This document shows, one piece after another, positions 5,201 to 17,436 of a stretch of DNA of 64,000 bases; the first letter of the stretch is position 1, and each line of letters begins with the position of its first letter. The notes below the pieces were generated by a model. The model made no database searches. It saw only the letters and a program-made list of their open reading frames with translations, and had not been told where the DNA came from. Location of the stretch: the NCBI RefSeq assembly GCF_900156475.1, contig NZ_FTNR01000006.1, positions 186,001 to 250,000 on the forward strand. Direction: 5' to 3'. The stretch is from Natronorubrum thiooxidans. GTDB taxonomy: Archaea; Halobacteriota; Halobacteria; Halobacteriales; Natrialbaceae. The position numbers and the translations under genes are program-made.

Positions 5201-8200
5201 TCAACCGACCACAACGTGATCGGAGCCGATGTCGATACCGGTATTGTCGACCACTTGACTTTCGGGTGCACCACCCTGATCGGAGTCACCGGGCCCGACG
5301 TCGGGCGAATCACCGGAATCGGCGTCCCCGCCAAGCTTGAGGTCGAAATCGTCCGGCGTGCCGGCCTCGCCGCCCTCGCCTGAACCGACGTCTGCCTCCT
5401 CGCCGCTTCCGGGACTGATAGTGATGCTTGGCTTCCCGGGGTCGACGCCTGCCTGTTCGACCTCAACGTAGACGATCAGGTCGTTGAAGTTCGGGTCGTA
5501 GGTCTCGTTGGGCTCGTCTTCGTAGGCGTCTATCGCCTCGTCCCAGAGTGCGTCGATGCCGTCTTTGTCCGTTGACTCAGTATTCTCGAAGAGGAACACG
5601 AACTCCCCTGGGCCGATATCGAGTTCGTCGCCACTGTTTTCGATCAAATCGTGTTGCTCAAGCACCTCCGTGGCACTCAGCTGATGATCGGTCCCTGAAG
5701 GAAGTGCCGGGATCGTGTTGTTCTCGTTACTTCGAACGCGGACGTTCTGAAGGTTGGCGTCCTCTGAAGCGTCGATCGGTCCGAACTCCACTTGATCTAC
5801 CCAATACCAGCCCTGGATCTGGTTCCAAGACCAGTCTCCCTCCGGGACGTCCTCACACCAGCTGAACCAGATCGACTCACCCGAGTAATGCGGTAAATCA
5901 CTGCTGTGAGTATACTTATCACTACAAGTCGAGTACCTCGTATTTCGCAAGGTGAGATCGGTTTCTTCGTCTACGGTGAATTCGTGAGTATAGCTATTAT
6001 CACTCTTATCCTGCCAAGTTGGGCCGATGTTGATGTTGTTGCCGCCATCTGGATTCTGGAACGAGTGTTCTGTCTCACCGTTCGTCACGACGTCCAACGT
6101 CATCGGAGCGATGTGTCCCTGGGTGCTAGAAACCTGTGACCCCAGCACCTCGACAGTCACGTTCGCGTCCTCGACGCCACCGAGTTCGACATCCCCAGGA
6201 TCGATACCGGCGTCGACATCGAACGTCATCTCGAGTTCGTCGTCCTCGGTCTTGATCGTCGCGTCGTAGGTGCCGGTGACCAGGACGCTCCGGTTGATCG
6301 GCAGTTCGATGGTGGCGTTCTCACCGACGACTCGTTCGGCAGTACCGGCATCGATCGTCTCCGCGTATGGATCGTCGTCGAATTCGTCGTCGTCTTTCAG
6401 GTCGAGATCGAGGGTCACGTCCTGTTCGCCGTCGTCGACGCCCGTGTTGTGGAGGTCGGCCGTGATCGTGACTGCCTCGTCGTTGGTCGTCGCGTTGCCG
6501 TTTGCCAGTTCGAATTTGGTCCCGGGATGGCCGAAGTAGAACGATCCGTTCGGATTCAGTCCATCGCCTTCGGCCTGAATGTCGTACTCGTAGACTTCAC
6601 CGTGATCGAAGTCGTGATTGTCGGGGTCGACCTCGAAGTCGACTGTGTCGGTCATCCCATTCTCGAGTTCTTTCGGTTCGGAGACGTTGACGTTCGCGTC
6701 CGGGATCGAAAGCGTCACGTCCCGCTCGACGGTGGTCGGATACGTATTCGCAACTTCGGCACTGACGGTAAATGACTCACCATCGTCGGTAACGAACTGA
6801 TCGTCACCGGCACCCTTGTCGTCGACGACCACGAAGGCCATTCCGTCGCCACCGGTTGCGTCGCCTTCGATCGTGCCGTTGACTTCGCTGCCATTTTCAT
6901 CTGTTGTGATTGTGAATTCGTGTTCTCCAACTGGGATCGCACTCTTGTTTATTTCCCACTCAACGGTTCCCTCGGCTCCGTAGTTTAGGTCGATCTTCTG
7001 GGTATTCGTTTCGCCGAGGAACTCGAGCGTGACGTCTTGATCACCGTCTTCGATCCCGAGATTCATGACTGGCACAGTGATCGTCACGTTGTCGCCATCA
7101 ACTGACGTCTCGACGTTGTCCAACAGCTCGAAGTATGGATCCGCTTTACCATAATAAAACGAACCACGATCATCGGGCTGGTGATCTTCCGTCTCGATGG
7201 AATACTCATAGATGTTGCCGACCTCGAGCGTGCCGCCGAAATCTTCCCCGTACTTAAAACTCAGCTCGTCCTGGCCACCGAGAGTTGTGTTTTGACCAGG
7301 TCCGAGTTTACCTGAGTTCTCGCTCGTGTTAAAAAGGGCCCCGCTTTCGTTGAAGACGGTTACCGTGACGTTTTGCCCGACTCGTTTGGTGCCCTCATTC
7401 TTGATTACCGTTTCAATATAGAACACACGATTATCGGCGTTGTCGAGCCGGTCGTCGTACGACGGCTGCGCTTTCCCTTGTTCGCCAGCAATTCCAATCC
7501 CTTTATCCTCTTTAACCATGAATGTCGGCATTTCGACCGGTTTCCTAACGTCTTCGATGACCGCCTCAACGGTTTCATGGTCCTCGTGGTGGATGACGTC
7601 GACTTTGGGGTTTTCGTCCTCTCCAAGCGCATCCTCGAGGAACGTCGCCCAGCCTTCGTGGTACGAACTTTCGATCCTGAACGCGACATTACTGCCGTCA
7701 CAGTCGCTTGCTGTCGCCTGAATCTCATTCGTCAGGGCCATTGACTTGCTGTGATCTGCCGTCGCTGCCAGTCCAGAGCCATCGACGACACTCTCGCTGA
7801 TCTGCATGAGTTGGAGTTGTAGCGACTCACCGTCGTAGCCGATTTGTGGATCCGAGACGACCGTCGTATCGTCGCCGTCGTGCTCCCAGACCCCACCACC
7901 CTGATGGACGATCGTTCGGTCGTCGAGTTCGTACTCAAGCGCACCAAGCGTCCCTGACTCATTGGTAGGTGCAGTACACGCTTGGCCGCTCCACGGATCC
8001 GCTGACTCGTTGTACCATGAGACTTCGATCGAACCGTCGTCGACAACCGACATATCAGCATCAGGTGGCACCTCGAGCGGTTGTGGCCCATCCGAAATCG
8101 TCGCCGTCGCGAGCGCTTGATCGGTCTGTCCCATATAGGTGATCGCCCGCTCCCGATCGCTCTGGCTCTCTAGCGCATCAAACAGCGGCCCCGCAGCAAT

Positions 8201-8320
8201 GATGACCAGCATTGCACCCGCCAGTACCATTCCAAAGAGCAGGACGATGCCGATGATCGGTGCACCGCCCCGATCAGCGGACGATTCTGATCGAGTGGCG
8301 GCGCGTGTCGAGGAAGTCAT
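5201..8320 (-). CDS. Giant pilin-like surface protein with tandem CARDB-type domains
   Basis: This protein of 1039 residues starts with a type IV pilin-like N-terminus: a charged segment, then RGGAPIIGIVLLFGMVLAGA and a single membrane helix (about 20-45). The rest is extracellular and very acidic. Residues 267-485 and 496-704 are two copies of one unit: each opens with F(M/V)V(K/V)(E/D)DKG, passes through (I/V)YEY(S/D)I, then GSFY(Y/F)G, (F/Y)FEL and a second beta domain with GxxDGxQDVTL. These look like Ig-like CARDB folds. The tail (about 710-1039) has several Cys and Trp residues and a Gly/Asp/Ser-rich end. It is probably a membrane-anchored adhesin or pilus-related protein. It has a strong TATA box and stands first in the surface locus. 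Confidence 0.75.
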   Translation of the reverse strand: MTSSTRAATRSESSADRGGAPIIGIVLLFGMVLAGAMLVIIAAGPLFDALESQSDRERAITYMGQTDQALATATISDGPQPLEVPPDADMSVVDDGSIEVSWYNESADPWSGQACTAPTNESGTLGALEYELDDRTIVHQGGGVWEHDGDDTTVVSDPQIGYDGESLQLQLMQISESVVDGSGLAATADHSKSMALTNEIQATASDCDGSNVAFRIESSYHEGWATFLEDALGEDENPKVDVIHHEDHETVEAVIEDVRKPVEMPTFMVKEDKGIGIAGEQGKAQPSYDDRLDNADNRVFYIETVIKNEGTKRVGQNVTVTVFNESGALFNTSENSGKLGPGQNTTLGGQDELSFKYGEDFGGTLEVGNIYEYSIETEDHQPDDRGSFYYGKADPYFELLDNVETSVDGDNVTITVPVMNLGIEDGDQDVTLEFLGETNTQKIDLNYGAEGTVEWEINKSAIPVGEHEFTITTDENGSEVNGTIEGDATGGDGMAFVVVDDKGAGDDQFVTDDGESFTVSAEVANTYPTTVERDVTLSIPDANVNVSEPKELENGMTDTVDFEVDPDNHDFDHGEVYEYDIQAEGDGLNPNGSFYFGHPGTKFELANGNATTNDEAVTITADLHNTGVDDGEQDVTLDLDLKDDDEFDDDPYAETIDAGTAERVVGENATIELPINRSVLVTGTYDATIKTEDDELEMTFDVDAGIDPGDVELGGVEDANVTVEVLGSQVSSTQGHIAPMTLDVVTNGETEHSFQNPDGGNNINIGPTWQDKSDNSYTHEFTVDEETDLTLRNTRYSTCSDKYTHSSDLPHYSGESIWFSWCEDVPEGDWSWNQIQGWYWVDQVEFGPIDASEDANLQNVRVRSNENNTIPALPSGTDHQLSATEVLEQHDLIENSGDELDIGPGEFVFLFENTESTDKDGIDALWDEAIDAYEDEPNETYDPNFNDLIVYVEVEQAGVDPGKPSITISPGSGEEADVGSGEGGEAGTPDDFDLKLGGDADSGDSPDVGPGDSDQGGAPESQVVDNTGIDIGSDHVVVG

Positions 8321-8532: not shown

Positions 8533-9075
8533 TTATCGTGGTTTCTCCATCCCACCAAGTCGCATCCGTCGGCTCTGTACAGCGTGGACGACTGCCGAGA
8601 CCGCAAACAGCGCGAACACCAGCGTTGCCCAGCCCAGTTCGGAGACCGTCTCCGTTGGCACGACCTCGAGCCACAGTCCAGCCATCACGACCGACCCCAG
8701 CACAGTCAACCCGAGATAGTACAGCCCCCACGGGATCGAGTTCCCCGGGACGATATCCAGGTAGACGTCCAACTCCGAGGCGTGGTCGGTCAGCGCGATC
8801 GTTCGATCGTCGAACTCGATCATGTCGGCGCGCTCGAGCGTCGGCAGGTGCGTCTGCTGGAGTGACGTGTAGACGCGCTTGCGTTCGGCCGAGGTCAGCT
8901 CGTCGATCTCCTTGTCGAGTTCCCAGGCGGCGACGTGTTCGGCGAGGTCCCCGAGTTCGACCGGTTCGCCCTCGCGCTTGCAGTAATGGATCGTGTAGCG
9001 ACGGCGCTGATTGCTCAGCAGGTCGAAGATTTCTCCCTGACCTGGATCTGACCGTGTCTCAGCCTGTGTCGCCAT
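8533..9075 (-). CDS. Winged-helix regulator with two membrane helices (DUF7344 type)
   Basis: The product of 180 residues has an N-terminal helix-turn-helix domain (GEIFDLLSNQRRRYTIHYC, then LGDLAEHVAAWE, KRVYTSLQQTHLPTLERADM), the pattern of the haloarchaeal DUF7344 winged helix. It ends with two membrane segments (about residues 118-137 and 144-164) and a basic tail. The DNA-binding domain would face the cytosol and be tethered to the membrane. Such proteins are common in haloarchaea, often near surface-protein genes. ATG 9075 is used because the upstream extension to 9150 is A/T-rich and non-coding in look. It lies between two surface-protein genes and may regulate them (inference). Confidence 0.8.
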   Translation of the reverse strand: MATQAETRSDPGQGEIFDLLSNQRRRYTIHYCKREGEPVELGDLAEHVAAWELDKEIDELTSAERKRVYTSLQQTHLPTLERADMIEFDDRTIALTDHASELDVYLDIVPGNSIPWGLYYLGLTVLGSVVMAGLWLEVVPTETVSELGWATLVFALFAVSAVVHAVQSRRMRLGGMEKPR

Positions 9076-9207
9076 TCGGTGTCTGTCTAGAGCTGAGATG
9101 CTCACAACCAATAAGTATACTGTACTATCACGAAGTCGTGGGAATCGCATCCGATCGTGGATCGAACTCGGTCCCCGCGACCGGTATCGTACCGCCGGCT
9201 GTCGATC

Positions 9208-10101
9208 TTAACACTGGACGCCAGCGAGGTCGGTCTGGTTCTCCAGAATCGTGCCGGTGACGACCGCATTGTTGCCCACAGTGACCGATCCACAGGCCGA
9301 GACGTTGCCGTCGATCTCGGCGTTGTTGCCAATGGTGACGTCCCCGCCGGCGATGATATCACCGCTGACGAGATTGTTCGCGATGACGATATCGCCCTGA
9401 GCGACGATACTGCCGACGTTCGCGTTGTTGCCGACGGTCACTGAGCCCCCACTGGAGATGGTCTCGGAGACACCGACGTTGTTCGCGATCGTGACATCGC
9501 CACCGCTGGTGATCTGCCCGCCGACAGCGACGTTGTTGTCGACCGTCACGTCACCGCCGGTCGTGACGTCACCATCCTCGTCCACGGAGACCACGACCGG
9601 CTCGTCCGAAAGGGTCGTACAGTCAATGGGGACGAACGCGGCTGTCGTCCGTGTCGCATCGACACTCGAGCCAGCAGCCGAGGCGACGAGCCGCAGTTCG
9701 ACGCGGTAGCTCCCATCGAGCGCCTCCCCGTCCCCACACGCGAGGACGACATCGAACGTGTCGGCGTCGCTTCCCGGCTGGACCGTCGCCTCGAGAGCGG
9801 TCGTCGACACGGCTGCGTTGTACTCGTCAGTAATCCCAACCACTGAGGCGTCGACACTGCTCTGGCTGTGCCCGTCGAGAGTGTCCGTCACTGCGTAGAC
9901 GGTCGTCGTCCCATCCGGCGCGTCGATCGCCGCCGACGCTGAACGGTCCTCGAGGCCGAGATAGGCACTCGAGTCGTCGGCGGTCCCGACACTCACGCCG
10001 CGCTCGGCGGCGATGGTGGCAAACCCGAATGTCGGGCCGGCCATCGCCATCGCTCCGACGAGGATGAGCGCGAGCGCGATGACTGTGAGTGATCGTATCA
10101 T
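9208..10101 (-). CDS. Secreted Asn-ladder repeat protein with fibre-type N-terminus
   Basis: The product of 297 residues has a signal peptide (about 1-25), then FATIAAERGVSV and SAYLGL, a module also found in the three secreted proteins at 10589, 11627 and 13001. A middle beta-rich domain with Cys122/Cys161 follows. Residues 182-282 hold six repeats of about 18 residues of the type GGDVT(V/I)xNNxxV; the NN pairs fall at 189, 207, 225, 242, 259 and 277. This spacing suggests a beta-helix resembling bactofilin-type polymer-forming proteins, but exported. The short tail contains a Cys at the end. It could be a scaffold or cap of a surface structure; function unknown. Confidence 0.75.
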   Translation of the reverse strand: MIRSLTVIALALILVGAMAMAGPTFGFATIAAERGVSVGTADDSSAYLGLEDRSASAAIDAPDGTTTVYAVTDTLDGHSQSSVDASVVGITDEYNAAVSTTALEATVQPGSDADTFDVVLACGDGEALDGSYRVELRLVASAAGSSVDATRTTAAFVPIDCTTLSDEPVVVSVDEDGDVTTGGDVTVDNNVAVGGQITSGGDVTIANNVGVSETISSGGSVTVGNNANVGSIVAQGDIVIANNLVSGDIIAGGDVTIGNNAEIDGNVSACGSVTVGNNAVVTGTILENQTDLAGVQC

Positions 10102-10418
10102 GGATGCAGTGGGATCGAAGTGGCTGCGTGTGGCACAGATCAGCTTAGCTACGGCCTGGTTCCTGTGCCCGTACTAGAACTACGGGTGGCACAAATATAA
10201 GCCCGCCGAACAGTCACGACATCACATAGCTTGCTCGCGCTTGGCGTGCCGTGGTAGTGCGTGAAGCCGCCGAGTCGTCGCCTCAAGTATATCGTGAACT
10301 GCGGATTCGGCAGTCGTATCATTAGTGGTGAATTCTGCGGGGTGACTCGAGCAACCACGATAGTGAGACGTATGAGTGTCGGTGACTCGCCGAATCTGTG
10401 GGAAAGGCGATTTCGAGA
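10102..10418. other. Intergenic DNA, no gene seen
   Basis: About 320 bases between the divergent genes at 10101 (minus) and 10589 (plus). Short open frames on both strands lack halophilic composition and family resemblance. The region must carry the promoter of the repeat-protein gene on the minus strand; a T/A-rich patch (cacaaatataag, 10190-10201) is a candidate TATA element. Confidence 0.5.
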
Positions 10419-10588
10419 GTTCAAGCCGGTCTTGAAGCTGATATTGGGGTTGCTGGAACGGGTATTATCAATCCTGAATATAGTCTCGATACACAATACA
10501 AAGTAGGTAGGGTCCTAAGAGAGGAGTAAGAACCGCGTTCCGTCCCCATCGGCAGGGATCGAGGCACGGTTACATGGAGAGTACAATC
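10419..10588 (+). repeat. Duplicated block, copy 1: ORF tail plus spacer before DUF1102 gene
   Basis: This stretch is alignable with 12828-13000. The first 37 codons (10419-10529) read as the end of a protein: VQAGLEADIGV ... SLDTQYKVGRVLREE then TAA. The second copy encodes the same length with VQAGLE, ESLESQYKVGGLLAGE and TAA at the same place. Differences fall partly in third codon positions (caa/cag, ggt/ggg, gta/gtg). A spacer of 59 nt with weak hairpin potential follows, then a GGAG ribosome-binding site shared by both copies. Upstream, a TGA (10383-10385) interrupts the frame, so only the 3' end of a lost gene seems to remain. Confidence 0.7.
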
Positions 10589-11140
10589 ATGAGCATGAAC
10601 CGACGCAATGTGTTAGTTGGACTGGGAACGATCGTCGCGGGCGGCGGCGCAGCGCTGGGGACAGGTGCGTTTAGTAGTGTAGAAGCAAACCGATCTGTCA
10701 ATGTTTCTACCACTGGTGACGCGGGGGCATTAATTGGACTAAGCATTGAAGCTGGAAGCGCTCTTGAAGGGACAGGAGGTACCGACGATGAAATAATCGC
10801 CTTCGACCTCGAGAACGATATCAATCTTGACGCAGTGACAACATTTGATGATGTATTTACCGTTACAAACACCGGGGGGACAGCTTCGGAAATAACTCTC
10901 GAAATTGAAGATGCAAGTGATAATACATCTCTTCTCACTAGCGACGTGGGCAGCGAATCTGATGCGGGGATGTACCTTGAGAATTCATCGGTAAGTGGTG
11001 GCCAGATCACTCTAGGCAGCGCTCAAAGCGATGATCTGGTCTTCAGCGTCGTGTTCGATATGTCCGACGAAACAGATACAACCAGTGCGGACGGCACGAT
11101 CCCGGACAACATCATTATTAGAGCCACCCAACAAAGTTAA
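10589..11140 (+). CDS. DUF1102-type secreted protein 1 (putative fibre subunit)
   Basis: The product has 183 residues. It opens with a twin-arginine signal (MNRRNVLVGLGT, then GGGAALGTGAFSSVEANRSV) and continues as a small acidic beta-rich domain with the DUF1102-like FDDVFTVTNTGGTASEITLE and a closing DLVFSVVFDMSD. The start is set by comparison: the paralogue at 13001 has ATG at the position of 10589, but ACG where this gene has the ATG at 10574. A GGAG lies upstream in both. The N-terminus resembles SipW-dependent signal peptides of TasA-like proteins. Codon use is more A/T-rich than that of the genes beyond 13.6 kb. It is probably exported and processed by the peptidase at 14944. Confidence 0.8.
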   Translation: MSMNRRNVLVGLGTIVAGGGAALGTGAFSSVEANRSVNVSTTGDAGALIGLSIEAGSALEGTGGTDDEIIAFDLENDINLDAVTTFDDVFTVTNTGGTASEITLEIEDASDNTSLLTSDVGSESDAGMYLENSSVSGGQITLGSAQSDDLVFSVVFDMSDETDTTSADGTIPDNIIIRATQQS

Positions 11141-11626
11141 ATTTAAATTACAGTAGGGAACCGCTGACACTATCAAATAGTATTTATTGACTTAGTGTAT
11201 TTATCAGCTGATTAGTTACTGAGTGGCTGATAACTGTGGTGATTTCTATGGATCAGTACAGTTGCCGCATCCCTAATACCAAGCTCATTATCTTGCTTGA
11301 TTGATACTTAACTCGGAAAACTATTGCTGCATCCTGAAAGAAAGGTTAACGCTGCATGAAGTACACACGACAACCCGACTGATCAGACTGACATGCACTT
11401 CTTGTCGCAAAAATAGTGTGATCAAGAGAGATAGATTGCGATCGAACAGGGATACTGAAATACTGTCGAAAGTGCGCCTGTTTAATTCTGGATTCTACAC
11501 GAGGGCGTTGAGCCACCGAAACGGCGTCTGACTGCAGAGAGGCCAGTCGGTGTGTCTGTGTAAGTATGCGCTTTGGTGACAGTCGAGCCAGCGAACTTAT
11601 AATGATGGATAACATGTTAACTAGTA
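11141..11626. other. A/T-rich intergenic region, no gene seen
   Basis: About 490 bases, visibly richer in A and T than the rest of the window. Short frames on both strands end quickly and resemble nothing. An inverted repeat (atcagctgattagttactgagtggctgat) lies near 11203-11231. The motif cttataatgatgg (11597-11609) is a likely promoter element for the gene starting at 11627. The base composition and lack of genes suggest imported or eroded DNA. Confidence 0.5.
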
Positions 11627-12433
11627 ATGAAACGCCGGGTGTTCATGGGGCTGGGGGTGGCGTCAATCGGTGCCGGTGCACTGCATAGCACCGGCGCATT
11701 TTCAGCCGTCAATGCAGCACGCGGGGTCTCTGTGAGTGCCGCACCACTGGGCGACGGGCTAATTGGAATCGTCGATCAGGGACCGGTCAAGCGGAACAAC
11801 AAGGAACCGATGGTCGAGATCTCGAACAACACGACTGGATCGGTTTCCTACGAGATTACCCTCGATACGTGTAGTGACGGGACGCTCTACGACAACGATG
11901 GCGGATCCGGTTGTTCGGTCACGTTTACCCTGAACGCTGGCAATTCGCAGTTCGTCAGTATCGAAGCAGCGGTGACGGGAACGGTCAGTTATACGATTAG
12001 TACGTCTGGAAGCGTTTCGCTCGAAGCGACTCGAACCGTCGAGTCAGAAAGTGGAAACACAAATCCGAACGTGCGCATTCAAGCACCGAACAAAGATCAA
12101 GACTTTACTGCGGCTCTCCCACAAGGCAATTCGGGGAATATCTTTGAAATCAAGTCTGTTGACATCCGAGATGAAACCAACAACGTCGGACTTGCTGAAA
12201 TAAAATACGAAGTAAGAGAGGGGAGTGCCAATGGTAGACTCGTCGCTGAAAAGACTGTTATCCCCCCAGATCCCGATCGATACAAGCCAAATGGAAACCC
12301 AGCGGAAACGATTGAGCCAAACTCCGGTGAGATTGTCAAGAGTGACCAGTTGTATACTCTGCGGATCAGGGGCGAGAACAATAACGGTGATTTCAATACG
12401 ACAACCCTCTCGACGACAACTCCTAGTGCATAA
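11627..12433 (+). CDS. Secreted twin-arginine protein related to the DUF1102 group
   Basis: The product has 268 residues. The N-terminus MKRRVFMGLGVASIGAGAL followed by STGAFSAVNAARGVSVSAAP matches the shared module of its neighbours. A first beta domain (about 35-140) contains two Cys (TCSDGTLY and GSGCSVTF) that could form a disulfide. A second part (about 145-268) is Asn-rich (SGNTNPNVRIQAPNKD) and may be another Ig-like fold; it is less acidic than usual for the organism. No membrane anchor is present, so the mature protein would be released or assembled into a surface structure. Position between two DUF1102 genes supports a shared role. Exact family unknown. Confidence 0.75.
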   Translation: MKRRVFMGLGVASIGAGALHSTGAFSAVNAARGVSVSAAPLGDGLIGIVDQGPVKRNNKEPMVEISNNTTGSVSYEITLDTCSDGTLYDNDGGSGCSVTFTLNAGNSQFVSIEAAVTGTVSYTISTSGSVSLEATRTVESESGNTNPNVRIQAPNKDQDFTAALPQGNSGNIFEIKSVDIRDETNNVGLAEIKYEVREGSANGRLVAEKTVIPPDPDRYKPNGNPAETIEPNSGEIVKSDQLYTLRIRGENNNGDFNTTTLSTTTPSA

Positions 12434-12827
12434 TAAACGGATTTGGAGTCGGAGATGGCGTTGATCGACTAATTATCTCCTGTCGAGATCGGCGACAGTC
12501 ATCCTTGGTGTCCATGGCGACAGCCACCTCGAAAGTTCGGTCGATGGAGTTCACTCAATCAATCAATGGTGGACGTTTCGATCGTCAACATAATATTCAG
12601 GAACCCTTCAATATCGCTGATTGAGCTACTGCCACTGGGATTGAGCCTGACGCCCCCAATTGAACCGGTCTCCCGACTTCAGGATGTATGTGAGCCGCGG
12701 TCGTCCTCGTCAGTTCCAATCCCATCGGTCAGCAAATTAGAGTTGCGATCGGCATGACTAACACCCTCACTCATGGTATTTGTCAATTCGTTACACTTCA
12801 AATCCAGCGAATACTACTGATTTCGCT
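12434..12827. other. Intergenic DNA, no gene seen
   Basis: About 390 bases with only short frames; a 63-codon frame at 12566 has no family resemblance and no halophilic composition. The duplicated block follows directly. The frame of the block's ORF tail extends back here to a TAA at 12759, but this extension does not match copy 1. Confidence 0.45.
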
Positions 12828-13000
12828 GTTCAGGCCGGGCTTGAAGTAGGTCTCGCTGTCCCTTCACGGAGTGCGATCAATCTTGAAGAAAGTCTCGAGA
12901 GTCAATACAAAGTGGGTGGCCTCCTAGCGGGAGAGTAAGAGCCGCGTTCGACACCGGACTGCGAGTCGGGTTCGAACGCGGTTACACGGAGATTACAAAC
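12828..13000 (+). repeat. Duplicated block, copy 2: ORF tail plus hairpin spacer
   Basis: This is the partner of 10419-10588. It reads as a 36-residue protein tail plus stop (12828-12938; VQAGLEVGLAV ... QYKVGGLLAGE, TAA), then a 62-nt spacer with a strong hairpin and a GGAG before the ATG at 13001. The block therefore joins the end of one gene to the start of a DUF1102 gene in both places, which implies duplication of a two-gene unit rather than of DUF1102 alone. Confidence 0.7.
12942..12981 (+). promoter_or_regulatory. Perfect 10-bp hairpin in the leader of the second DUF1102 gene
   Basis: ccgcgttcga (12942-12951) pairs perfectly with tcgaacgcgg (12972-12981); the 20-nt loop contains a further near-palindrome (ccggact gcg agtcggg). 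It stands 4 nt after the preceding stop codon and 19 nt before the start codon. It could end the upstream transcript or structure the mRNA leader. Copy 1 keeps the position but has only a weaker stem. Confidence 0.6.
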
Positions 13001-13609
13001 ATGAGAATGAACCGACGAAGTGTGATGGTTGGATTGGGAACGGCAATCGTGGGCGGCGGCGCTGCGCTCGGTTCGGGTGCGTTCAGTACGGTCACAGCGG
13101 AGCGATCAGTTGAAGTTAATGTTATTAATAATGCAGGAGAGATCGCCGAGGAGTTCGTAGACGTTGTAGTTGATCCGACTAGCATCGGCAGTGTTGGAGT
13201 TGACGGTGGCACCGTCGTCAGTGATACGACCTACGACCAAACCCCAAGTCTGGGTAGTGATGCGGTCAGTCTAGTTGCTGATGCTGCTGACTTGACAATC
13301 GGATTTGGACAATCTGATGGTGGAGATTTTGATTCCCTTGACCCAATCCCAGCAAACGCTACGGTCGCATATGAAGATCTATTTGTAATAATTAATGACA
13401 ATAGCCAAACTAATGATACTTTCACCGTCACGTTCGACTTCGATGATGAAGACGGAACGGCCAACTACGATCTCTCGTTTGATGATGATGGTAATAACGA
13501 AGTTACTGTGACCGAGGGAACTTCTGAAACCATGGGCCTGACGGAACTCACTACAGGAGACGCAGGTAATTCTAATGGCCTACTGACTATCACGATCGAA
13601 AACGCTTAA
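13001..13609 (+). CDS. DUF1102-type secreted protein 2 (putative fibre subunit)
   Basis: The product has 202 residues with a twin-arginine signal MRMNRRSVMVGLGT and then GGGAALGSGAFSTVTAERSV, very close to the protein at 10589. The mature part is acidic, beta-rich and Asp/Asn-heavy, with YEDLFVIINDNSQTNDTFTV in the place of the DUF1102 core FDDVFTVTN and a closing LLTITIENA. It has no membrane anchor. The upstream spacer is also homologous to that of 10589. It is the gene nearest to the CARDB-signal peptidase-DUF5305 group (64 nt), so it is probably the main substrate of the dedicated peptidase (inference). Confidence 0.8.
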   Translation: MRMNRRSVMVGLGTAIVGGGAALGSGAFSTVTAERSVEVNVINNAGEIAEEFVDVVVDPTSIGSVGVDGGTVVSDTTYDQTPSLGSDAVSLVADAADLTIGFGQSDGGDFDSLDPIPANATVAYEDLFVIINDNSQTNDTFTVTFDFDDEDGTANYDLSFDDDGNNEVTVTEGTSETMGLTELTTGDAGNSNGLLTITIENA

Positions 13610-13672
13610 TTACGATTCACTCGCCTACGTTCGGCCGTCTGATCGAACCGACACGACCGATAACTGTATTCG

Positions 13673-14845
13673 ATGCCATCCACCAAGACCCTATTCGCAG
13701 CTGCAGCCGCTTGTTTTCTCGTGGCATTCGCAGTTCCAACTGTAGCAATCACGGTCGGTGAGGACCCGGCGAGCGACGACGTCGTCCTCGAGCCGGTCGA
13801 CCAGCGGTATGCGACAGTCGTAGATGGGGAACTCGAGCTTGATCTCACTGTCCTCGACAACACGGTAACGGAGTTCATCGAGGTGTTTACGATTTCGGTG
13901 GGTTCGGGCGCCGATGATATCGAGTCGATCTGGATCAGTAACGACGTCGACGGCCTCGAGTTCTACGCGGGAACTAATGCAGCAGCCGAACTCACAGAGT
14001 CGAACCCCCTCGAGCCAACGGCCGGCCAAACGACGAGCATCGGCGTGGCGGTCGATACGCACTTCGCCCAGAGCGGTACGGAGACGTTCACGGTTCACGT
14101 CCGCTACGAGGACGAGGATGACGACGACGAAGACGACGAGGACGATGATCCGGTCGAGATCCCGCGCATGATCGACCTCGAGTCCGTCGACTCCGATGTG
14201 ACGGCCGCCGAGACGGGCGACTCGGTGACGGTGACCGCGACCTACCGGAACAACGGCCCGAGGACGGAGACGGTGATGGCCGCGTTCACCGTCAACGGCG
14301 TCGTCGTCGAGACGAAAACGCTCGAGCTCGCCCCCGGGGAGACGGCCTCGGTGGGCTTCGAACGCCAGTTGCAGTGGCCCGGCACGTACGAAATCGGCGT
14401 CGACGGCGTCAGCAAGTCGGTGACCGTCGAGGGGCCACCGATCAACGTGCTCTCGGCCTCGGTCACTGACGCCGAACTCACCGCGGGCGAGACGACGACG
14501 ATCGAGGCGACGGTGACGAACCCCACAGAGATGCAGGTCGACCGCACCCTCGAGCTCGCCGTCGACGGGATCGTCGTCGACACGCGAACGGTGACGCTCG
14601 AGCCGAACTCGGAGCGGACGGTGACGTTTGACCGGCAGTTCACTGAGCCGGGAACGTACGCGATCGCGGTCAGTGGCGTCGAGGCGGGGTCGATCACGGT
14701 CGATGAACCGGAGCCGACCGTGCTTCGGAACCGCGACCTCTCGGCGGCGACGACGGCGGCGCTCGCCCCGCCGATGGCAGCCGGGTTCCTGTTTCTGGCA
14801 GCCGCGGCGAACCGTCGCTGGGCGTTCGTCTCGAGGGAAGCGTGA
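13673..14845 (+). CDS. Membrane-anchored surface protein with DUF1102-like and CARDB-like domains
   Basis: The product has 390 residues. A Sec-type signal (about 1-25) precedes a domain with DQRYATVVDGELELDL and NTVTEFIEVFTIS, which resembles the DUF1102 core. A run of Asp/Glu (about 144-158) forms a hinge. Two Ig-like CARDB-type repeats follow (about 165-250 and 255-345), each with a TxGxxxTVxAT opening and a (W/E)PGTY(E/A)I end. A single C-terminal membrane helix with a short basic tail anchors it. It lies 63 nt after the second DUF1102 gene and 98 nt before the signal peptidase. It may anchor a fibre to the cell (inference). Confidence 0.78.
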   Translation: MPSTKTLFAAAAACFLVAFAVPTVAITVGEDPASDDVVLEPVDQRYATVVDGELELDLTVLDNTVTEFIEVFTISVGSGADDIESIWISNDVDGLEFYAGTNAAAELTESNPLEPTAGQTTSIGVAVDTHFAQSGTETFTVHVRYEDEDDDDEDDEDDDPVEIPRMIDLESVDSDVTAAETGDSVTVTATYRNNGPRTETVMAAFTVNGVVVETKTLELAPGETASVGFERQLQWPGTYEIGVDGVSKSVTVEGPPINVLSASVTDAELTAGETTTIEATVTNPTEMQVDRTLELAVDGIVVDTRTVTLEPNSERTVTFDRQFTEPGTYAIAVSGVEAGSITVDEPEPTVLRNRDLSAATTAALAPPMAAGFLFLAAAANRRWAFVSREA

Positions 14846-14943
14846 CGACTCGAGGCCACTCCACGAGGCGTTTAAGATGGTCGATCCCGAACGACAATCT
14901 AGTTGAATAGTCAGGTATTCATGAACGTCCACAGGACGAGGCA

Positions 14944-16113
14944 ATGACGTCAGCGACGCTCCTCAAGCGAGCGGTCGGTGTCGTCGTCGCACTCGCGATC
15001 GTGTTGCTGTTAGTCGGCCAGCTACTGGGACAGCCGATTCTGCTGGGCTACGTCGCGACGGGCAGTATGGAGCCGACGATGGACGCCGGCGACGGCTTCG
15101 TCGCGATTCCAAGCGCGGTCTCGGGGTCGGTCGAGGAGGGCGACGTGGTCGTCTTCGACGCGCGCGAACTCCACGGCGGCGGGCTGACGACCCATCGCGT
15201 CGTCGGCGAGACCAGTGAGGGGTACGTCACGAAAGGCGACGCTAACCCGTTTACCGACCAGGACGGCGGCGAACCCCACGTCACGGACGGCCAGATCGTC
15301 GCCAAAGCGTGGCAGGTACAGGGCGAAGTCGTCACGGTCCCCAAGCTCGGGACGGCGATCATGGGCGTCCAGAACGCTGCGGCAGCGGCCGCCGGGACGG
15401 TCGGTCCGATTCTCGGCCTGACGACGTCGCCCGACTCGGAGGGGATCGGCTCGCTGCTGGTCGCCGTTGGCGTCGCCCTGCTCGGCTTCGGGGCGCTGGT
15501 TGATCGACTCGGCCCCGCACGACGCGAGAAAAAGCGCTCGCGCTCTCGAGAGAACGTCCTCGCGTTCTGGACGACGCTCGGGCTGGTCTTGCTCGTGTTC
15601 GTGACGTTTGCGACCGCAGCGATGGTGGTTCCAGCAGGCACCACCGAGTACGAAATCATCAGCACCGAGACGCCCGAAGACGATCCACAGATTCTCGCCC
15701 CCGGGGAGACGGGCGAACTCACCCGAACCGTCGACAACGCGGGCTATCTCCCGATCGTCGCGATTCACGAGGCCAAAAGTAACAACGTCGAGACGGACCC
15801 GCCCTGGCAGACGGTCGGGCTTCGCTCGAGCGCGGAGACGACGGTCTCGCTGACGGCCCCCGAGACGACCGGGCAGTACACCCGCCACGTCGGCGAGTAC
15901 CGCTATCTCGCGGTGCTCCCGCCGTCGGTACTGGTCTGGCTTCACGGCCTCCACCCTCTCGTTGCGATCGCCGCCGTCAACGGCGTTATTGTCGGCGTCG
16001 CCGTCACGATCGTCCTCGTGGTGTTCGGCCGCGGCGATTTACGCCTTCGCTCCGCTGGCACGCACGTTCCACTGTCGACGCGTCTCAAGCGGAAACTTCG
16101 GAAATGGCTGTAA
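14944..16113 (+). CDS. SipW-like signal peptidase I (S26B) with extra surface domain
   Basis: The product has 389 residues, far longer than the roughly 180 of a plain SipW peptidase. Residues 1-140 form the catalytic part: a membrane helix, then TGSMEPTM with the catalytic Ser41, THRVV with His84 (the S26B replacement for the bacterial lysine) and GDANPFTDQD with Asp99/Asp105. A second membrane segment (about 162-180), a basic stretch (RREKKRSRSRE), a third membrane helix (about 200-220), an extracellular Ig-like domain (about 225-320) and a last helix with a basic cytosolic tail follow. The gene stands right after the putative fibre subunits, as SipW does beside TasA. It probably cleaves their signal peptides. 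Confidence 0.85.
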   Translation: MTSATLLKRAVGVVVALAIVLLLVGQLLGQPILLGYVATGSMEPTMDAGDGFVAIPSAVSGSVEEGDVVVFDARELHGGGLTTHRVVGETSEGYVTKGDANPFTDQDGGEPHVTDGQIVAKAWQVQGEVVTVPKLGTAIMGVQNAAAAAAGTVGPILGLTTSPDSEGIGSLLVAVGVALLGFGALVDRLGPARREKKRSRSRENVLAFWTTLGLVLLVFVTFATAAMVVPAGTTEYEIISTETPEDDPQILAPGETGELTRTVDNAGYLPIVAIHEAKSNNVETDPPWQTVGLRSSAETTVSLTAPETTGQYTRHVGEYRYLAVLPPSVLVWLHGLHPLVAIAAVNGVIVGVAVTIVLVVFGRGDLRLRSAGTHVPLSTRLKRKLRKWL

Positions 16114-16257
16114 CCATCGATCCAGCGGAAAGGGCCGATATCGTTATAATGGTCGCAAAAAGTGAATGTGTATATGCGCGTCCTCCAGCCGACCCATTGG
16201 GACGGGCCGGGAACAGTGGAGAGACGGAGCCAATATGTCTAGCAGGGTGTTCGAATT

Positions 16258-17436
16258 GTGATCGATAATCCGCGCCTCGAGTTAGTACTCGCCCAGTACG
16301 GTCGTGTGATCACAATCGCCCTGATCGTCGTCGGCGCACTCGCCCTCCTCGCGACGGGGTGGGCCGTCGCCAATCCCACGACGGAAACGACCACCCAGTA
16401 CGGCGACGAACGCGTCGAGAGCGACGTCCAGACGAGTGCCGTCGTCGTTCGGGACGGCGAGCTCTGGAGCGAGGGCGACCGCCTCGAGAACAGCGGGGTG
16501 TACGTCCTGAACGCCTCGCCGGAGCTGGTCCTCGAGCCCGAGACCAGGCTGGTCGACGAGGGCGACAGGACGTCGATCGATGACGCCGACGTAACCCACG
16601 AACTGACGCTTCGCTTCGAGGCAACCAGGGATGGGGAGTCGTTCTGGAACGAGACCCACACGGTGATCGACGAGTCGCCGTCGGTCGAAGACGGCACCGC
16701 GACGTCGACGACGACGATCGATGTCGAGTCCTACCGGGACCGACAGCGCCAGTTAGAGCGCGAACTCTCCGGTATCGGCTCGGTCGAGCTCGAACTGGAA
16801 CTCCGTGTCGAGTACGACACCGGGAGAACTCAGGGGACACAACAGGCGTCGACGGCGGTTCAGGTGACTGACGACGCATACTGGCTGTCGGAGTCGCTGT
16901 CTGCCTCCGACAGCCATACCTACCAGATGGCGACGGAACAGACGACTGAGTCACGGAGTCTGGGGACCATCGGCGGGCTCTCCGTGCTCGGCACGCTCGC
17001 ACTCGTGGGTGCCGCGTTCGTCGCTCGGCGGGCACCGGTTGACGAGGACGCCGCCCGCCGTGCAGTCCACGAGCAGCGCTACGCCGAGTGGATCTCGCGT
17101 GGCTCGATCCCGATGTGGGTCGGCGACTACCACATCTCGCTTGATACGTTAGAGGACGTCGTCGACGTCGCGATCGATACGAACGAGCGCGTCGTTCACG
17201 ACCGCCAGCGCGGGCTGTTTGCCGTCGTCAACGACGATGTCGTCTACTACTACAGCGAGCGCGGCCTCTGGGAGGAGACCGCCTGGCCGGAAATGAACCT
17301 CACGAAGCAGTCGCCAACGCAGGACGACGAACCGGCGTTCTCGCCCGAAGAACTCGAACTCGAGGGCAACAACGAATTCGAAGCACCCGATGAGGGTGGG
17401 TTCGACGATGACGAGGACGTCTGGAAGCAGTTGTGA
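16258..17436 (+). CDS. DUF5305 domain membrane protein
   Basis: The product has 392 residues from a GTG start, with no better ATG nearby. A membrane helix (about 16-37) is followed by a long extracellular beta domain (about 40-235) with repeated TxTxxV strands, a second helix (about 240-258) and a cytosolic part with WISRGSIP, DTLEDVVDVAIDTNERV and VVYYYSERG. This is the pattern of DUF5305, regularly found beside SipW-like peptidases in haloarchaea. The C-terminal 40 residues are acidic and disordered, ending DVWKQL. It may act as an assembly or anchoring factor for the fibre subunits; no biochemical function is known to me. Confidence 0.85.
   Translation: MIDNPRLELVLAQYGRVITIALIVVGALALLATGWAVANPTTETTTQYGDERVESDVQTSAVVVRDGELWSEGDRLENSGVYVLNASPELVLEPETRLVDEGDRTSIDDADVTHELTLRFEATRDGESFWNETHTVIDESPSVEDGTATSTTTIDVESYRDRQRQLERELSGIGSVELELELRVEYDTGRTQGTQQASTAVQVTDDAYWLSESLSASDSHTYQMATEQTTESRSLGTIGGLSVLGTLALVGAAFVARRAPVDEDAARRAVHEQRYAEWISRGSIPMWVGDYHISLDTLEDVVDVAIDTNERVVHDRQRGLFAVVNDDVVYYYSERGLWEETAWPEMNLTKQSPTQDDEPAFSPEELELEGNNEFEAPDEGGFDDDEDVWKQL

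Follow-up and report, generated by a model that had tools for sequence, protein, structure and literature searches.

A gene cluster of Natronorubrum thiooxidans that very likely encodes a Tat-exported pilus of the Tat-fimbriae type

Haloarchaeal Tat-fimbriae (“tafi”) are thin filaments built on the Tat-exported protein TafA (Galeva et al., iScience 28:111793, 2025, as cited in PMC12687288). NCBIfam holds TafA, TafC and TafE as named fimbrial proteins, with equivalog cut-offs of 190, 410 and 155 bits, respectively, as the threshold for naming. A canonical locus, L040, exceeds all three (TafA 250.6, TafC 567.6 and TafE 224.6 bits), and also contains SipW-like, DUF5305 and DUF7344 genes together with a gene coding for a pilin-domain anchor. 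A further point of reference is PDB entry 9P0A, deposited as “Pilin”, which is 100% identical over the 166 residues compared (the part of the sequence shown) to a protein of Natrinema gari JCM 14663. Two further beta-rich filaments of archaea that are assembled without the type IV pathway are the Pyrobaculum bundling pili (AbpA, 7UEG) and the Sulfolobus threads, for both of which donor-strand complementation has been reported (PMC9715654). In Bacillus, the TasA/TapA/SipW fibre combines secreted beta-sandwich fibre subunits with an adjoining dedicated S26 peptidase.

The locus described here lies in a window of 64,000 nucleotides, which is the whole stretch of DNA that was analysed. All open reading frames of the initial annotation are present where it had placed them in the ORF listing of the window, and together with the domain matches they confirm its arrangement, with three secreted twin-arginine proteins (10589, 11627 and 13001), an anchor, a peptidase and a DUF5305 protein encoded in one direction and gene 9208 divergent from this + strand set. 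The set comprises a TafE-like pilin (10574-11140), a two-domain pilin-like/TafC-like protein with a twin-arginine signal, taken as an accessory subunit (11627-12433), a TafA-like pilin that is the candidate main subunit (13001-13609), a membrane-anchored pilin-like subunit (13673-14845), an archaeal S26-type, SipW-like signal peptidase (14944-16113) and a DUF5305 membrane protein (16258-17436; PF17231, 5.7e-50). The region from 13001 to 17436 is operon-like, its genes sharing one direction with intergenic gaps of 63, 98 and 144 bases, and larger gaps lie downstream of 10574 (486 bases) and of 11627 (567 bases). The 10574 frame contains an internal ATG at 10589, which corresponds to the start of 9P0A and is likely the true start. 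The local G + C content dips to about 0.51 at window positions 10001-14000, over the three pilin-like genes, against 0.60-0.67 around them.

On the - strand, a TafC-type protein with a C-terminal beta-solenoid, a candidate tip or accessory subunit (9208-10101), lies beside two genes on which the initial annotation had not remarked and which recur at related loci. One codes for a winged-helix-type DUF7344 protein, a probable local regulator (8533-9150; Pfam DUF7344, 1.4e-29), in which two hydrophobic C-terminal segments form a predicted membrane end. The other codes for a large secreted or anchored DUF7289 protein (5201-8320; PF23960, 2.9e-17), a recurrent but not universal neighbour. This protein of 1039 aa has a pilin-like N-terminus and CARDB-like repeats, and its gene adjoins pilin loci in Natrinema and Natronorubrum relatives.

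The TafA match of protein 13001 extends from end to end (2.1e-32, residues 1-201 of 201, 112.8 bits) and persists with the mature part alone (2.4e-18), while 10574 matches TafE (3.3e-25, 88.8 bits) and 9208 matches TafC (6.9e-7, residues 9-150, 28.7 bits). As none of the three reaches the NCBIfam equivalog cut-off of its family, the window genes are relatives of tafA, tafE and tafC and not equivalogs. Protein 11627 has a TafE match in the signal region (7.8e-7) and is found by the TafE mature profile at 2e-4 (Z=1000); its homologue at L048:4809-5606 matches both TafC (3.9e-9) and TafE (5.8e-9). Tandem TafE-like pilin genes, two or three in number, are present in L072, L084 (Halorubrum) and L078, which suggests expansion of a pilin cassette.

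The only notable PDB matches of 10574 and 13001 in single-sequence searches are to 9P0A, at 3.8e-17 and 8.6e-8, respectively. A profile search of the PDB that gave 1.5e-39 to the same entry was set aside as circular, the alignment having contained the N. gari protein. To exclude a match by the shared signal peptide alone, a profile of the TafE mature part was made without the N. gari clade, and with this profile the mature pilin of N. gari scores 9.3e-19 (Z=1000). Downstream of the N. gari pilin gene, homologues of 13673 (352 bits), 14944 (629 bits) and 16258 (550 bits) keep the order that these genes have in the window, and DUF7289 and DUF7344 lie on the other side of the pilin, as they do here. 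Since the same genes occur in the same order, the window represents the orthologous locus in another genome, although the N. gari locus has one pilin gene in the part covered, whereas the window has the TafE-like, 11627 and TafA-like genes.

The gene set is also conserved more widely. Among nineteen 16-kb loci of other genomes, picked by their TafA matches, a SipW-like gene and an anchor are present in all (19/19 each), and DUF5305 and DUF7344 in 18 of the 19 each; because these components recur, the layout is not due to chance. As canonical L040 carries the same accessory set, tafi clusters ordinarily include a SipW-like peptidase and DUF5305. The window thus shares with tafi the clustering of TafA- and TafE-type twin-arginine pilins, a TafC-type protein, a SipW-like peptidase, DUF5305, DUF7344 and a pilin-domain anchor. 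It differs in gene order, in its scores below the equivalog cut-offs, in the stalk of the anchor (CARDB instead of low-complexity) and in the TafC-type protein (solenoid instead of LamG). In the genome of the window, DUF5305 is single copy and TafA/TafE-like genes are found only at the present locus. Of 292 genomes sampled from the class, 219 have a TafA-profile match, often to the signal region only, and 239 have DUF5305.

The locus very likely makes a haloarchaeal Tat-exported pilus of the tafi/9P0A type. The extracellular fibre with its own peptidase put forward in the initial annotation is well supported by the TafA and TafE matches, the 9P0A homologue at the orthologous locus and the dedicated SipW-type gene. 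Its statement that no characterised haloarchaeal example was known is incorrect, since the tafi system has been described and the pilin of a relative, 9P0A, has been solved, and the locus adds to this known kind of pilus instead of defining a new system. Our explanation rests on the homology, gene content, gene order and conservation found here; the TafA filaments, as described in the cited literature, and the solved pilin come from elsewhere.

The signals and the peptidase fit together. An RR pair is invariant in 45 of 45 pilin relatives with an aligned signal, and both the TafE-like and the TafA-like pilins of the window carry a twin-arginine signal. A G-A pair (columns 63-64), A70 and R72 are likewise invariant in the 45 aligned relatives, so that cleavage would be expected at GA^F or at the invariant A before xR. 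The cleavage of TasA provides a parallel to the GA^F site. Protein 14944 matches archaeal signal peptidase I above the cut-off (TIGR02228, 2.2e-15) and SipW below it (NF046067, 3.1e-8), in agreement with its earlier identification as a SipW-like S26B peptidase. It contains the catalytic set of the S26 archaeal/ER (S26B) type, a Ser and His pair with Asp, and Ser41, His84, Asp99 and Asp105 are invariant in an alignment of 7 homologues, as in the archaeal Ser-His type. It also has a C-terminal extension with further TM helices. The genome of the window has only one other S26 match, a 222-aa frame elsewhere.

The similarity of the peptidase to SipW is one reason for considering a true TasA/SipW-type biofilm fibre system, related by common descent to Bacillus TasA and crenarchaeal AbpA. 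The association of secreted beta-sandwich subunits with an adjoining dedicated peptidase, shared by the window and Bacillus, also favours this explanation, as does the inclusion of AbpA in the fold list of 13001, but we consider it unlikely. The AlphaFold2 model of mature 13001 (pLDDT 84, pTM 0.82) is mostly beta, and its best PDB fold matches are self-complemented FimA monomers (4.5e-4, probability 0.99), weak ones with a TM of about 0.4. AbpA (7UEG) ranks 49th among the 50 listed fold matches (E=0.27, TM 0.28, probability 0.13), and neither a TasA entry nor 9P0A is among these 50. In sequence searches with a limit of E = 1, none of 46 pilins matches the TasA/camelysin family. The similarity to AbpA is a marginal structural one with no sequence match, although AbpA and the Sulfolobus threads resemble the presumed window product in forming archaeal filaments that are rich in beta structure and independent of the type IV pathway. 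Unlike the Bacillus system, moreover, the window has Tat signals on its pilins and a membrane-tethered pilin-domain anchor. Comparison with chaperone-usher pili is limited in a similar way, as FimA provides the best folds for the TafA-like model but no usher or chaperone homologue is present among the genes examined at the window locus. The structure prediction proposed as a check gave a mostly beta fold for mature 13001, with a weak resemblance to FimA-type pilins. The product of the locus probably works like a TasA-type fibre, but a specific kinship with TasA is not supported by these matches.

The secreted proteins could instead remain unpolymerised at the surface, either soluble or associated with the S-layer, and small acidic secreted beta-sandwich proteins are indeed common in haloarchaea. 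This explanation is very improbable, given that the homologue from the orthologous locus was deposited as a pilin (9P0A) and that PMC12687288 describes surface filaments with TafA-type proteins as their core. Marginally less probable still is a type IV pilus-like system with DUF7289 (5201) and others as pilins and the TafA/E-like proteins as decorations: DUF7289 proteins do have a pilin-like hydrophobic N-terminus and adjoin several loci, but many taf loci are without DUF7289, the genes examined at the locus include neither a type IV pilus ATPase nor a prepilin peptidase, and TafA/E proteins carry Tat and not class III signals.

In the Tat-exported pilus that we favour, protein 13673 would provide the attachment to the cell. 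It consists of a signal, a TafE-like domain (about residues 34-145), two CARDB domains (2.9e-13) and a C-terminal TM helix (361-379), which agrees with its initial description as a membrane-anchored protein with CARDB-like and pilin-similar domains. Its N-terminal domain aligns with TafE at an hhalign probability of 96.6%, and, despite stalks of no evident relationship, with the anchor of Haloarcula-type loci at 98.9%; the match to TafA is weak (9%), and none of the controls (reversed alignments, the SipW C-terminal domain and the CARDB domains) reaches 1%. In L040, the gene at 6200-7414 (- strand), between tafE and the DUF5305 gene, encodes a pilin-like domain, a low-complexity P/S/G-rich stalk and hydrophobic C-terminal segments, and is the canonical tafi counterpart of the CARDB anchor. 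A fold search with a model of 13673 was left out of consideration, as its matches, RbmA and transglutaminase barrels among them, were only of a generic Ig/FnIII kind with TM no higher than about 0.3. The presence of a TafE-like outer domain on a TM-tethered protein is the best evidence for the proposed role of 13673 as a surface anchor. As this N-terminal domain is TafE-like, sequence comparison suggests that the tethered domain forms a pilin-like base for the fibre.

The TafC-type protein 9208 has an N-terminal signal, a pilin-like N-domain and a C-terminal beta-solenoid. It is found by the TafE mature profile at 1.6e-6 (Z=1000), and has solenoid-like matches to FapA (3.8e-7) and bactofilin (4e-4), both below cut-off. 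TafC-type proteins have the pilin-like N-domain in common and are variable in the C-terminal remainder, which is LamG in L040 and L041 and bactofilin/solenoid in L044, L081 and the window, while the protein of L069 has a weak sub-threshold CARDB match. Because these C-terminal domains vary, a tip or adhesive role is suggested for TafC-type proteins, and 9208 is probably such a subunit. A second gene with a TafC-like N-domain is present in the same genome (G000:C62:4339-4791, L034), on a 7.4-kb contig away from the locus.

The genes of the locus appear to have different histories. In its mature part, the TafA-like protein of the window shares 69% identity with that of G141 (L047), a genome of another haloarchaeal family, whereas the corresponding sequence (13082-13609) has no match at 1e-8 in five genus-mates, which seem to have one TafE-like pilin and no detectable TafA. 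Anchor 13673, in contrast, is 34% identical to that of G141 and 57-71% identical to those of genus-mates, and at the DNA level the window resembles G141 for the most part only within the coding region of tafA. These patterns make a lateral exchange of the tafA gene probable, with the assembly genes being native.

How the pilus is made is our inference as regards the sequence of steps, the donation of a strand and what the anchor, the TafC-type protein and DUF5305 do. Folded precursors of TafE-like 10574, TafA-like 13001 and accessory 11627 would exit via the Tat pathway, and the dedicated S26-type peptidase 14944 would cut off the pilin signals within the conserved GAF...AxR stretch. Once mature, the beta-sandwich subunits would polymerise outside, probably by terminal strand swap or donation. 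Protein 13673 would tie the base of the pilus to the membrane, its outer TafE-like domain joining the same subunit contacts on a CARDB stalk, with 9208 probably placed at the tip or acting in adhesion and DUF5305 (16258) putatively helping assembly. We tentatively extend this, at somewhat less than even confidence, to tafi-type pili in general: they may be built on a pilin-like protein tethered to the membrane (13673 or a Haloarcula-type counterpart), which as the base subunit would seed the polymerisation of folded Tat-exported subunits cleaved by a peptidase dedicated to Tat substrates, with pilin genes exchanged between distant haloarchaea and the anchor, peptidase and DUF5305 genes native.

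What is new here is the TafE-like outer domain of the anchor, as in canonical tafi loci, the make-up of TafC-type proteins, in which variable C-terminal domains follow a pilin-like head, and the apparent exchange of tafA. Independent exchange of pilin genes might, as a guess, reflect pressure from viruses or partners. A tethered pilin-like base, together with a dedicated peptidase, would account for the formation of a cell-attached fibre from subunits that are exported by Tat in folded form. Loci of the tafi type are very common, and they probably represent a main surface-fibre system of haloarchaea.
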